Below are positions 7,196 through 11,860 of a stretch of DNA of 64,000 nucleotides, in pieces; the first letter of the stretch is position 1, and each line of letters begins with the position of its first letter. Source of the stretch: Brasilonema sp. UFV-L1 (GTDB taxonomy: Bacteria > Cyanobacteriota > Cyanobacteriia > Cyanobacteriales > Nostocaceae). Under the pieces are notes generated by a model that was given only the letters and a program-made list of their open reading frames with translations, was not told where the DNA came from and searched no databases. Both the position numbers and the translations under genes were made by a program. The stretch lies in contig NZ_QMEA01000001.1 of the NCBI RefSeq assembly GCF_012912105.1, positions 124,001 to 188,000 of the forward strand, in the 5' to 3' direction.

Positions 7196-8170
7196 ATGAG
7201 CGAATTTGTCCTAGAACAACAAAACATAACGACTGCGCCGCAGCAGGTTCCACAGGAACGAATTCGTCGCTTGGTGTGGAGAATGTGTGTAGCCACTTTG
7301 ATTTTGATGGCAATAGGCAGTGCCACCCGTGTGATGAATGCTGGACTTGCTTGTCCTGATTGGCCTTTGTGTTATGGAGAACTCGTGCCAACCAAGCAAA
7401 TGAATTTCCAGGTTTTTTTGGAGTGGTTTCACAGATTGGATGCAGCATTAATTGGTATCAGCGCGATCGCACTCGTTGGAATGTCCTGGTGGTATCGTCG
7501 CTCTTTACCCAGATGGCTGCCTTGGGCATCGACATTCGCCCTATTTTTAATCGTTTTCCAAGGAATTTTGGGCGGACTCACCGTCACTGAACTTTTGCGG
7601 TTTGATATCGTCACCGCTCACTTAGGAACAGCGCTGTTATTTTTCACAACCCTACTAGTGATTGGTACTGCACTTACTCCTTACCAGGCAACTGGAACCG
7701 TAGGTAACTTACCTTGGGTAGGTTTAACAGCAGCTATCTTAGTTTATCTGCAAAGTCTACTCGGTGCTTTGGTAGGCTCTCGTTGGGCGCTACACCAATG
7801 CTTTGGCACATCCCAACTTTGTGCTGTAATGTATAGTCATATTGCTGGCGTAGTACCTCCAACAGTAGCAACATTGGCTGTGGTAATTCTTTCATGGCGG
7901 ACACCAGCACTGCATCCTGTTTTACGGCGACTAGCAAATATAGCTGCTGGATTACTCATTGTACAACTCCTGTTAGGAGTTGCTACTTTCCGGCTGCATC
8001 TTCAAGTCGAACCACTCACCGTCTCTCACCAAGCTGTGGGGGCGGCAATGCTTGGTACTTTAGTGGGTTTCACAGTTCTCGCACTACGAGACTGGATTCA
8101 TAGTCGTGGGATCAACGCTAACAGCTTGATTATCAACGCAAACACGACAACTGAACAAGCAATTGAATAA
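7196..8170 (+). CDS. ctaA: Heme A synthase
   Basis: CtaA/COX15 family membrane enzyme that oxidises the heme O methyl group to give heme A for the aa3 oxidase. At 324 residues with about eight helices it has the expected size. An early segment (SATRVMNAGLACPDWPLCYG) matches the family's first extracellular loop. Histidines expected to bind heme occur in FLEWFHRLDAA, TAHLGTA, YSHIAG and VSHQAVG. It is divergent from ctaC and 143 bp ahead of ctaB on the same strand, so ctaA and ctaB probably act together. A purine-rich AAAGG lies shortly before the ATG. Confidence 0.93.
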   Translation: MSEFVLEQQNITTAPQQVPQERIRRLVWRMCVATLILMAIGSATRVMNAGLACPDWPLCYGELVPTKQMNFQVFLEWFHRLDAALIGISAIALVGMSWWYRRSLPRWLPWASTFALFLIVFQGILGGLTVTELLRFDIVTAHLGTALLFFTTLLVIGTALTPYQATGTVGNLPWVGLTAAILVYLQSLLGALVGSRWALHQCFGTSQLCAVMYSHIAGVVPPTVATLAVVILSWRTPALHPVLRRLANIAAGLLIVQLLLGVATFRLHLQVEPLTVSHQAVGAAMLGTLVGFTVLALRDWIHSRGINANSLIINANTTTEQAIE

Positions 8171-8313
8171 AAGCTGTACACAGTACATAGTACACCAGGA
8201 CAGTGCAGGAAGTGACGACAACCTGCAGCAGGAGGATTTCCCACGCCCTGGTGACAAGTGAACCCGAAGAGTACACAGTTATCTTGGTTTGAAAATAAGG
8301 AAATAGTGCCAAA

Positions 8314-9270
8314 ATGATTGAGACTAATGTCTCTCGCCACCATCAAACATTTCTACAGGTTATTCAAAGCTACTATCAGCTGACGAAGCCTAGAATCATC
8401 CCTTTGCTACTTATTACCACTGCTGGAAGTATGTGGATTGCAGCTAAGGGAGAAGTAGATCCATTGTTGTTACTCGTTACACTTACTGGTGGTACTTTGG
8501 CAGCAGCAAGTGCCCAGACGATTAACTGTGTCTATGATCGAGATATCGATTATGAAATGGAGCGCACACGTCATCGCCCTCTGCCTTCTGGTAGAATACA
8601 GTCGCGCGATGCTCTGATTTTTGCTAGTGCTTTGGCTGTCATTTCCTTTACTTTGCTTTACGTCTTTGCCAACCTACTAGCTGCTCTGTTAGCAATGTCT
8701 GGTATTGTTTTTTACGTGCTAATTTATACGCATTTTCTCAAGCGACATAGCACTCAAAATATCGTTATTGGCGGAGCAGCAGGAGCAGTTCCGGCTTTGG
8801 TTGGTTGGGCTGCTGTCACTGGTACATTAAGCTGGGCTGCATGGGTACTATTTGCAATTGTCTTTTTGTGGACACCGCCTCATTTTTGGTCACTAGCTTT
8901 AATGATTCGGGATGATTACGCAAAAGTTGGCGTACCAATGTTACCAGTCATTGCAGGAACTACACCGACGGTACGGCAGATTTGGTTGTACACCTTAGTG
9001 ACAGTAGCAGCAACATTTTCATTGATTTATCCTTTGCAAGTCAGTGGAATGATTTACGGAGTTATTGCTGTGAGTTTAGGAGGAGTTTTTATTTACAAAG
9101 CTTGGCAATTACTGCACAATCCAGAAAACCGCGATTTAGCTAAAGGATTGTTTCTGTATTCCATCTCATACATGATGCTATTGTGTCTAGGCATGGTGAT
9201 TGATAGTCTTCCCATCACTCATCATGTCATTAATGTTGTGGTAGGTAAGGCGTATTTGTTAATGGGATAG
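8314..9270 (+). CDS. ctaB: Protoheme IX farnesyltransferase (heme O synthase)
   Basis: UbiA-superfamily prenyltransferase that adds farnesyl to heme B, the step before CtaA. The Asp-rich catalytic motif is clear in [21 protein letters not shown] second loop contains [14 protein letters not shown]. The 318 residues form about nine helices, normal for the family. It follows ctaA, separated by a 143 bp spacer containing heptamer-like repeats. The two genes supply heme A to the neighbouring ctaCDE oxidase. Confidence 0.95.
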
Positions 9271-9363
9271 AAGTTAGAGGTAGTGATCGCTCTTTTTGGG
9301 CGATCGCCCAAAAGGACTAATGACGACTCTCACCGCAACTGCAAGCAGCATCGTCTAATCACA

Positions 9364-9660
9364 ACAAAAAACCTCGGCGAAACCAACCGAGGTGAGGAGG
9401 AGAAGTCCAAATGTCGATAAGTAGCGATACCGAAATCTAAAAATCTTAGCTAACGCCCAAAGCAACCAAAACTACAGCAGTCACGAAAAAGAGTACAAGG
9501 CAAGACTGTAAAACATGATTACGTTGTTCTCAAATTGCAGGACACTCAGTGTAGTACATGTTGGATTTAGTTGCGTAGCTATTAAGAACGCTGTCTTCAT
9601 TAACAGCGGTATAGATAGCTTGGTCTTTTTGTTTTTTTGTATTCTTTTGTTATGTAAATA
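9364..9660 (-). ncRNA. Candidate small RNA or short mRNA between ctaB and hemE
   Basis: A near-consensus minus-strand promoter (9661-9689) and a strong terminator (9366-9393) bracket about 290 nt without a recognisable gene. Just before the terminator stem the transcript reads TCTCCTCCTCACC, a CU-rich stretch that could pair with Shine-Dalgarno sequences, as in some trans-acting cyanobacterial sRNAs. Short frames exist: an ATG-started 38-codon frame, and a TGA-interrupted frame whose second half is hydrophobic (SCLVLFFVTAVVLVALGVS). Neither has a clear ribosome site. An sRNA is favoured, but a small membrane peptide mRNA is possible. The exact 5' end is inferred. Confidence 0.5.
9366..9393 (-). 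terminator. Terminator of the ctaB-hemE intergenic transcript
   Basis: A 7 bp stem (ACCTCGG/CCGAGGT, loop of 9) is followed on the minus strand by a run of six T. Nothing annotated lies upstream on this strand except the candidate small RNA. Confidence 0.75.
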
Positions 9661-9689
9661 AATATAACGTTTTTGTTACAAAAGGTCAA
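9661..9689 (-). promoter_or_regulatory. Sigma-70 type promoter, minus strand
   Basis: TTGACC at 9689-9684, a 17 bp spacer and TATATT at 9666-9661: close to consensus with the optimal spacing. It points away from hemE into the ctaB-hemE gap. Confidence 0.65.
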
Positions 9690-9809
9690 TAGGACTTGAC
9701 ACAAAAAGACTGATAGCATTAATAAAATTTGCTTATCAGGAAGGAGCGATGATTGTGATGGGGCTTCTTGTGTTGCGTGTTATACACATTGGACAACTTG
9801 AAAAACTTA

Positions 9810-9838
9810 AAGCCGTTCTTAACTGGCAAGAACGGCTT
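9810..9838 (-). terminator. Terminator of hemE
   Basis: A perfect 11 bp stem (AAGCCGTTCTT/AAGAACGGCTT) with a 7-base loop is followed on the minus strand by TAAGTTTTTC. It lies about 90 bp past the hemE stop. Confidence 0.65.
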
Positions 9839-9926
9839 AGAGATTTTGTTGATCAGCTTATATCTGACGTACCGGTAGAAGTGGGTAGGAATTAAGTTAC
9901 AGTTTCTAATCCCTAACCTCGGCTGC

Positions 9927-10982
9927 TCATACAACTGCACTACTGAGTTGTTTCGCCGTTTCAAAGAAGAAAGCGACATTCTCTTCTGGAGTTTCCGGAA
10001 GCACACCGTGACCAAGATTGAGAATATGTCCTTTGTTACCAGCTTTGTGAACAGTATCGAAAATGCGATCGCGAATAAATTCCTTAGAACCAAACAGCAC
10101 ACCAGGATCAAGATTTCCCTGCACTTTAACGTGCTTACCTAATCTTGCCCGTGCGTCTGCCATATCTACTGTCCAATCTACAGTGATCACATCTGCACCC
10201 GATAGTGCCATTCTCTCAAGCAAACCAGCACTACCACTCACCAGTAGAATCAGGGGTGTATCAGGATGAGTTTCTCTCACTTGTTGGAAAACTCGTTGCT
10301 GATAGGGTAGTGCGAAAGTTTCATAATCTTGAGGACTTAATTGTCCTGCCCAAGAATCAAACATTTGCACAACTTGTGCGCCACAATCAATTTGATAGCG
10401 GACATAAGTTGTGATCGCATCTGCCAATTTTGTGAGCAACTGATGCAGCAAAGCTGGTTCCGAGAACGCCATGTTTTTGATGATGGAATAGGTTTTAGAA
10501 CCTTTTCCCTCTACCACATAAGCGGCTAATGTCCAAGGTGCGCCCACAAAGCCCAACACAGTTGATTGGTTGCCGACTTCTTGCCGCAATGCCTGTAAGA
10601 TTGTTTTAATGAAAGGCAGGGATTGCTCAGGTTCTAGGGGATGCAGGTTCTCAACTTGCCCGGATGTGCGAATGGGCGAGTGAATAATTGGTCCTTTACC
10701 TTCAGCGATATCCATATCAATACCCAAACCAGGAAGCGGCGTGACGATATCAGAAAACAAAATCACTCCGTCTGGTTGAAAGGCTTTCCACGGTTGTAAG
10801 GATATTTCAATCGCTACTTCGGGTATTTCCGAGCGTTCACGAAAAGAAGGATACTTCTCCCTTAAATCTCGGTAAGCTTTCATATACCGTCCTGCTTGTC
10901 GCATCATCCATACGGGGGGACGGTCTAACACTTCACCACGAGCTGCCCTGAGAAGATAAGGAGCATTGGAGGAAATACCCAT
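9927..10982 (-). CDS. hemE: Uroporphyrinogen decarboxylase
   Basis: Cytosolic HemE converts uroporphyrinogen III to coproporphyrinogen III in heme and chlorophyll synthesis. The N-terminal signature [18 protein letters not shown], with both substrate-binding arginines, is at about residues 21-38. Further conserved blocks are ILFSDIVTP with the catalytic Asp, [10 protein letters not shown], and the C-terminal [14 protein letters not shown]. The 351 residues are full length, with an ATG start. It stands alone, with its own terminator downstream. Confidence 0.96.
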
Positions 10983-11128
10983 TTAACAGTTCATCCTAAA
11001 CTCTTTTTTCTGTCATTGTTTAGCTTATCATCCCAGGATTGCCCTTTTTTCAAGAAGCTTTATATAGGGTGCGACTTGCAAAAATTCTACTTAAATTAGA
11101 CTTAAAACTTAATAATTATTCAACTCTT

Positions 11129-11860
11129 ATGCCACCTGATTCAAAACAACCACCACAAAAAGTTTTTTCTGGTAAACCTAAAGCGCGAAGATTTTTAATA
11201 CCTCCAATCGAGAGACGGAGTTTCTTCATCCAATTTACCCTCTTGACTGTTTTAGGATGGGTTGTAGGCGGAATTGCCAGTATAGGTATTGAAATAAATA
11301 TCGTAAAAATAGTGCCACCAGCGATTTTGCAGCAGAAAATATGGTACGACTTCACAAAATACTTCAGCAATTGTGTGTTTGCGCTCATTTTCAGCACAGA
11401 TCAAGCACTTGTTCTATATAAATACATATCTGGTTGGTGGTGGATGTTTGCCACAACTCTCGGTTGGCTAATTGCTAACAGCGTTTCTGCACAATGGATT
11501 CACGACATTGCATCTATTGCTTCATCATTCAATCAAAATTTATCTCCAAAACAAATAGTCATCTTAGGTTTTTTGTCAACCATCGCATATATCCTCTCTG
11601 GAATTTGGCTTGGGTTTTTCCAATGGCTCATACTGCGAAGACACACCACAAGTGCTTGCTGGTGGATTTTTCTGCCCTCCATTTCATTTCTATTCATCAG
11701 TATTTTGGTAGTGGTGCTTTCCCTTGTGCAAGAGTTTATTCCAGCAGTGAACCGCGATCAAGTTGTATATTTGTGTAAACAAGGGTTGACAGCGGTGGTT
11801 CTCGGAGCTGTTCCGGCTATTGGCTTGTGTATTTTGAAAAGAAACTCAGGTTCAACTTAG
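11129..11860 (+). CDS. Hypothetical membrane protein
   Basis: No family recognised. The ATG at 11129 (MPPDSKQPPQK) gives 243 residues and is preferred to an upstream TTG-type extension that lacks family logic. A short, basic, Pro-rich N-terminus leads into about five to six hydrophobic segments (for example LLTVLGWVVGGIASIGIEI and FLSTIAYILSGIWLGFFQW), so it is an integral membrane protein. Many similar cyanobacterial proteins have glycine-bearing helices with nearby Trp, as here (WWWMFATTLGWLIAN). It stands alone between hemE and the LacI relic. Confidence 0.6.
   Translation: MPPDSKQPPQKVFSGKPKARRFLIPPIERRSFFIQFTLLTVLGWVVGGIASIGIEINIVKIVPPAILQQKIWYDFTKYFSNCVFALIFSTDQALVLYKYISGWWWMFATTLGWLIANSVSAQWIHDIASIASSFNQNLSPKQIVILGFLSTIAYILSGIWLGFFQWLILRRHTTSACWWIFLPSISFLFISILVVVLSLVQEFIPAVNRDQVVYLCKQGLTAVVLGAVPAIGLCILKRNSGST

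Follow-up and report, generated by a model that had tools for sequence, protein, structure and literature searches.

In the window (the whole 64-kb stretch of DNA analyzed here), the minus strand between ctaB and hemE carries a gene of the small RNA (sRNA) family PsrR1, preceded by a psb34-like frame without a start codon. The family is known, but its member here is in an unusual and informative state, most likely a former psb34-PsrR1 unit whose protein gene is dead. We consider it probable that this is a high-light-induced PsrR1 gene descending from such a unit, with a promoter shut by RpaB and an RNA that pairs with target mRNAs.

PsrR1 and the psb34-like pseudogene

The covariance model of PsrR1 (RF02701) matched positions 9447-9367 of the minus strand over its full length (model positions 1-79) with 59.3 bits against a curated cut-off of 42, and this was the sole Rfam match in the 64-kb window at curated cut-offs. 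The initial annotation had proposed an independent sRNA with a possible tie to photosynthesis control and had suggested an Rfam search; it was right about the kind of molecule, and the tie to photosynthesis is borne out by the family membership, but the sequence belongs to a described family and is thus not a new sRNA. Passages of five papers trace PsrR1 to Synechocystis, where it was first described and works against mRNAs of photosystem I and the phycobilisome (PMC6091082, PMC6202907, PMC13421787, PMC10989914, PMC12850537); there it is described as high-light induced and RpaB controlled (PMC12850537, PMC13421787), and high-light induction is also described for S. elongatus UTEX 2973 (PMC6091082).

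The predicted primary transcript, placed by promoter and terminator positions, comprises 291 nt (9654-9364, minus strand). It ends in a terminator hairpin with a T run (9393-9366; stem 9393-9371, 8 pairs), preceded by the CU-rich stretch TCTCCTCCTCACC (9403-9391), both as initially annotated. From its sequence and fold, we presume this stretch to be the pairing region; the terminator stem takes in its last bases, and in the minimum-energy fold 7 bases (9400-9394) are unpaired between two hairpins. The terminator and the fold at the 3' end are clearly non-random: two terminators were found in 9360-9760 versus 0.2 +/- 0.5 expected from shuffles, and folding of the final 84 nt gave z = -3.1 (none of 200 shuffles as good), while the z of the whole 291 nt is -2.65 (1 of 200 as good). 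The window copy agrees in sequence and structure with PsrR1/SyR1 of Synechocystis sp. PCC 6803 and Synechococcus elongatus along the entire Rfam model, and the terminator, the CU-rich pairing stretch and an HLR1-like site in the core promoter are common to them. In PMC6091082 and PMC6202907, however, PsrR1/SyR1 is reported as a standalone gene of 131 nt, whereas the RNA of the window is predicted to be about 290 nt long and to start with a psb34 pseudogene, and many relatives carry several copies behind an intact psb34-like open reading frame (ORF).

In relatives, a 56-residue ORF lies upstream and ends at the start of PsrR1. Four example sequences of this PsrR1-linked ORF were named Psb34/ssl1498 by NCBIfam (88-94 bits), and the sole solved-structure match up to an E value of 1 was Tsl0063 (56-residue chain, four PDB entries; E 5e-4). 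PMC9458560 describes canonical Psb34 (Ssl1498) as an assembly protein of photosystem II and a competitor of HliA/B. The corresponding frame of the window (9616-9446, minus strand), recognized by its match to the Psb34 family (NF033486) and by alignment with relatives, scores 50.3 bits (cut-off 45) with one TGA in frame. It reads ATC instead of ATG at 9616-9614, carries the TGA at 9532-9530, where many relatives read TGG, and ends in the stop TAA at 9448-9446. Without an ATG and with the in-frame TGA, the gene looks dead; the profile match comes without an open frame with a start codon, and we class it as a pseudogene rather than a working Psb34. Assembly errors are conceivable for both the ATC and the TGA; even so, the frame has also diverged to an unusual degree, forming the longest end branch of the Psb34 tree (0.69).

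The statement of the initial annotation that no convincing gene lies inside the transcript holds for a live gene, but a dead psb34-like gene is recognizable there. Similarly, the hydrophobic frame that had suggested a tiny membrane peptide corresponds to the membrane-spanning end of a Psb34-like protein; with the ATG missing and a TGA in frame, the peptide was rejected as a live gene and kept as a psb34 remnant. A 39-aa ORF at 9600-9481 was not counted as a gene, because it sits within the psb34 frame in another phase, and L010 shows a similar out-of-phase frame.

Promoter and HLR1-like site

Pattern search located the annotated minus-strand promoter, in which a -35 element TTGACC (9689-9684) and a -10 element TATATT (9666-9661) separated by 17 bp agree with the consensus at 10 of 12 positions; the -35 element is common to relatives, and transcription would start near 9654. 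This was the top of eight promoter-like sites in 8000-11500 (6.1 +/- 2.9 expected), and in the 401 bases of 9360-9760, an AT-rich gap, two such sites compare with 0.8 +/- 0.9 in shuffles. Judged by pattern alone, the promoter exceeds chance only slightly; its support is conservation, with a promoter of the same type recognizable upstream of 59 of the 75 PsrR1 copies found (36 with an intact psb34-like ORF and 23 others). The consensus (TTGAC, TGTAACAA, GTTA, TTTACATAA) is much alike in both groups; this comparison left out the 16 copies without a recognized promoter, and four promoter-like matches were judged spurious by eye.

An HLR1-like site, GTTATATT-TA-TTTACATA (9668-9651, minus strand), overlaps the -10 element and the predicted start. 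Scored against the consensus as printed in PMC11633204, it matches at 15 of 16 specified positions, a score reached by 1 of 200 shuffles. Among the 59 promoter-bearing copies, 57 have a match of at least 14/16, the match equals or beats 95% of shuffles in 48, and the best match sits over the -10 region in 48. According to passages in PMC6331805 and PMC11633204, RpaB bound at an HLR1 overlapping the -10 element represses high-light genes in low light.

We propose that the PsrR1 gene of the window descends from a psb34-PsrR1 transcription unit, and that RpaB at the HLR1-like site over the core promoter would shut transcription in low light, with high light opening it. A single RNA of about 290 nt would then be made, whose first half no longer encodes a Psb34-like protein and whose last ~80 nt would be PsrR1 with its own terminator. 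Whole or processed, PsrR1 would pair via its CU-rich stretch with phycobilisome or photosystem mRNAs at their ribosome-binding sites and thereby lower their translation.

There is in addition a weak internal promoter-like site, TTGAGA-17-TACAGT (9533-9505, minus strand; 9 of 12 positions), in a region where 0.8 such sites are expected by chance. The TGA lesion supplies part of its -35 element, and an RNA starting from it would be about 135 nt long, PsrR1 elsewhere being reported at 131 nt.

Genomic neighborhood and candidate targets

The initial annotation had placed the RNA between the heme A genes and hemE and had considered a possible link to heme control as well. An sRNA that controls ctaB or hemE by its position would fit the arrangement in the window and the occurrence of ctaB near PsrR1 in three other genomes (G002, G004 and G005), but no hemE was matched near those ctaB-PsrR1 loci within stretches of 6.4 to 8.0 kb. 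When the conservation of the ctaB-hemE gap was checked as the initial annotation had suggested, none of 80 named hemE loci had a match to ctaB or PsrR1 in their surroundings (up to 5 kb on each side, some shortened by contig ends), and other PsrR1 copies lie in other neighborhoods. Moreover, hemE is followed by a hairpin of 12 pairs with a T-rich tail (9838-9810, minus strand), likely the hemE terminator, which suggests that hemE and the PsrR1 unit are transcribed separately. Heme regulation was rejected, as the hemE neighborhood is not common to relatives within the stretches covered, and control of ctaB or hemE by position is hardly credible.

Pairing with two mRNAs was calculated by a test with little power, given that the intended positive control, psaL of G041 with its own PsrR1, reached -29.5 kcal/mol but only z -1.5. 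In this test, the window RNA gave -15.6 kcal/mol (z -0.78) with psaL, a known target of PsrR1, and so did not exceed shuffles; across 13 genomes the median best z for psaL was -0.85 (16 loci given, three dropped with no start found). With apcA, the window RNA gave -27.8 kcal/mol (z -2.9), a moderate signal to be read against 38 ordinary gene starts in the window, one of which reaches -28.0. For the best PsrR1 copy of each of G001-G005, the z for apcA ranged from -4.1 to -1.3, with 0.2 in G006, and the median best z over all 19 of the 19 loci given was -1.69, all under the same low power. Pairing of PsrR1 with apcA may be taken from these values as a lead, no more. Prediction of targets from the CU-rich segment, another check suggested at the outset, yielded no target: near-exact complements of the pairing stretch (at most 3 mismatches) occur at 24 places in the window's own genome versus 17 for the reversed control, and the two exact places are the complements of the two PsrR1 genes.

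The psb34-PsrR1 unit and its decay in relatives

To place the window copy among its relatives, RF02701 matches were collected in 34 of the 59 genomes around the window (its own included), giving 75 hits with up to seven per genome; the Rfam cut-off is exceeded by 56 of the hits. Directly behind an intact psb34-like ORF lie 38 of the 75 hits (28 of these above the cut-off). The rest comprise the window copy, L010 (G011:C5) with a psb34-like ORF that is open but reads ACG where relatives read ATG, L147 with a very divergent open frame (33.9 bits), the six copies of G001-G005 that have a deletion in common, and 28 copies without a recognized psb34, one of which (L034) shows a faint match of 9.0 bits; the linkage is thus common, not universal. 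In a wider sample of the class, PsrR1 was found in 23 of 291 genomes, both samples having been searched with the stricter filters used above 40 genomes, at which weak matches are lost. Among 24 further loci of the wider sample, our own profile placed PsrR1 in 21 (four of them earlier places; L241-L243 without a match), and a psb34-like frame lies directly upstream in 10 of the 21 (eight of them new). One of the ten is L239 of another order, where PsrR1 scores 40.3 bits, below the cut-off. A further locus, L233 of another genus, has a decayed frame that can be aligned over the unit and scores 8.1 bits, with an E value of 0.009 in a small search.

The PsrR1-linked proteins are set apart from canonical Psb34. 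In a tree of 80 rows and 59 alignment columns, with many forks unresolved, 36 canonical Psb34 sequences form one side of a 100/98 branch, while the 38 PsrR1-linked sequences, the window frame and four of five unlinked sequences of the same type lie beyond a weaker fork (88/70). The canonical set was a chosen sample, in which 41 loci gave the 36 canonical sequences and five of the other type. The canonical psb34 of the window's genome (G000:C315) has another 3' end, with no PsrR1 match.

Within the window's genus (G000-G006), eight of nine PsrR1 hits are in psb34-type units. The psb34-like ORF is dead in seven of these eight and PsrR1 is kept; only the ORF of G006 is intact. The lesions are point mutations in the window and a frameshifting deletion common to the six copies of G001-G005, which removes 122 nt, not a multiple of three, and leaves 49 nt from start to stop; the start position of these copies reads ACG in five, as in L010, and ATG in one. 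Compared to the window, the six deletion copies are 83-91% identical in the PsrR1 core and 35-48% in the next 60 bases downstream, with 69-73% in the promoter region of the five measured. The intact copy of G006 is 75% identical to the window in the core, 82% in the promoter region, which here exceeds the core, and 21% downstream. The simplest reading of these comparisons is that the RNA, not the protein, is kept in lineages without the ORF. At three loci (L295, L305 and L306) the reverse of the window was seen by eye, that is, an intact psb34-like ORF with a PsrR1-like tail whose CU-rich pairing stretch looks largely eroded; decay of the ORF and decay of the RNA thus seem to be independent of each other.

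Two alternatives to a dead ORF with a living RNA have to be weighed. The window ORF might still be translated, from a non-ATG start, by read-through of the TGA or as a short C-terminal membrane peptide, and the unit would then remain a dual mRNA and sRNA. Apart from its two lesions the frame is full-length and still scores 50.3 bits, and the otherwise intact frame of L010 behind an ACG suggests that an unusual start might be tolerated; however, two separate lesions in a much diverged frame, together with the deletion that destroys the ORF in five sister genomes with PsrR1 kept, make continued translation quite improbable. Alternatively, both parts may have degenerated, the window PsrR1 being a relic without a functional RNA and a second copy in the same genome (G000:C281; L031:2005-2084, minus strand, 52.6 bits) doing the work, in line with the erosion of the RNA part behind intact ORFs noted above. 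Yet the window copy outscores the second one and keeps its promoter, HLR1-like site, pairing stretch and terminator, whereas no promoter was recognized upstream of the second copy; we regard a relic as unlikely. The second copy starts at the end of a 100-residue ORF without a Pfam or NCBIfam match. We retain the reading of the window as a PsrR1 gene that has outlived its psb34-like ORF.

A second host gene was found in pgr5 (NF049860, cyclic electron flow), behind which G058 carries three PsrR1 copies. In L049 (G058:C182) pgr5 is intact (123.6 bits) and lies directly before PsrR1; in L050 (G058:C277) it was matched as two overlapping pieces in different frames; and in L017 (G058:C443) a 26-codon frame joins both ends of the protein, as seen by eye, a remnant that the family search did not find. 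As the G058 genome is a draft (about 460 contigs), its broken pgr5 frames need checking. A pgr5 tail that stops 2 nt short of PsrR1 was matched in G316 (24 profile positions, 28.4 bits, below the family cut-off of 50), and the same tail was seen, by eye only, in G311 (L231 and L232 being the loci of G311 and G316). pgr5 is present but away from PsrR1 in G263, G276 and G304, and a search in G041 and G000 found none. With pgr5 hosts beside psb34-like hosts, attachment of PsrR1 to a small photosynthesis ORF followed by loss of the ORF may have happened more than once.

We give about even odds to a reading in which PsrR1 serves high-light genes as a portable module at their 3' end, with a host ORF that dies repeatedly while the RNA survives as a standalone sRNA gene; these odds are lowered by the G006 comparison, the matches below cut-off and the draft state of G058. 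If so, one mRNA would yield both a photoprotection or photosynthesis protein and an sRNA lowering antenna and photosystem I genes, with psb34-like hosts in Nostocales and a pgr5 host in another lineage. In many Nostocales, a single transcript induced by high light may then supply both a Psb34-like protein and PsrR1. ApcZ, a cyanobacterial sRNA derived from a 3' end and described in PMC8136909, is likewise located at the 3' end of a photosynthesis-protein mRNA; unlike ApcZ, PsrR1 occurs with or without an ORF under the same promoter type, outlives the ORF in the window and has two different host ORFs. The origin of standalone bacterial sRNA genes is an open question that the PsrR1 decay series addresses, with an intact dual unit, a point-mutated ORF and a frameshifting deletion as graded states within one genus, bare PsrR1 genes with the same promoter type nearby and a similar picture for the pgr5 host. 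Dual transcripts would then turn into standalone sRNA genes, with the window and its genus caught midway and the TGA lesion part-building a weak internal promoter for an RNA of classical PsrR1 length.

The psb34-PsrR1 linkage is likely but not certainly new to the literature, as a search for Psb34 and PsrR1 together found no mention of it; the founding PsrR1 paper, reportedly Georg et al. 2014, lay outside this search. The PsrR1 passages of PMC13421787 and PMC12850537 make no mention of a pgr5-PsrR1 linkage. Finally, similar 23-residue hydrophobic ORFs precede weak PsrR1 hits below the cut-off in L144 (G014:C96; 37.3 bits) and L146 (G034; 36.2 bits), and are perhaps another small host ORF.
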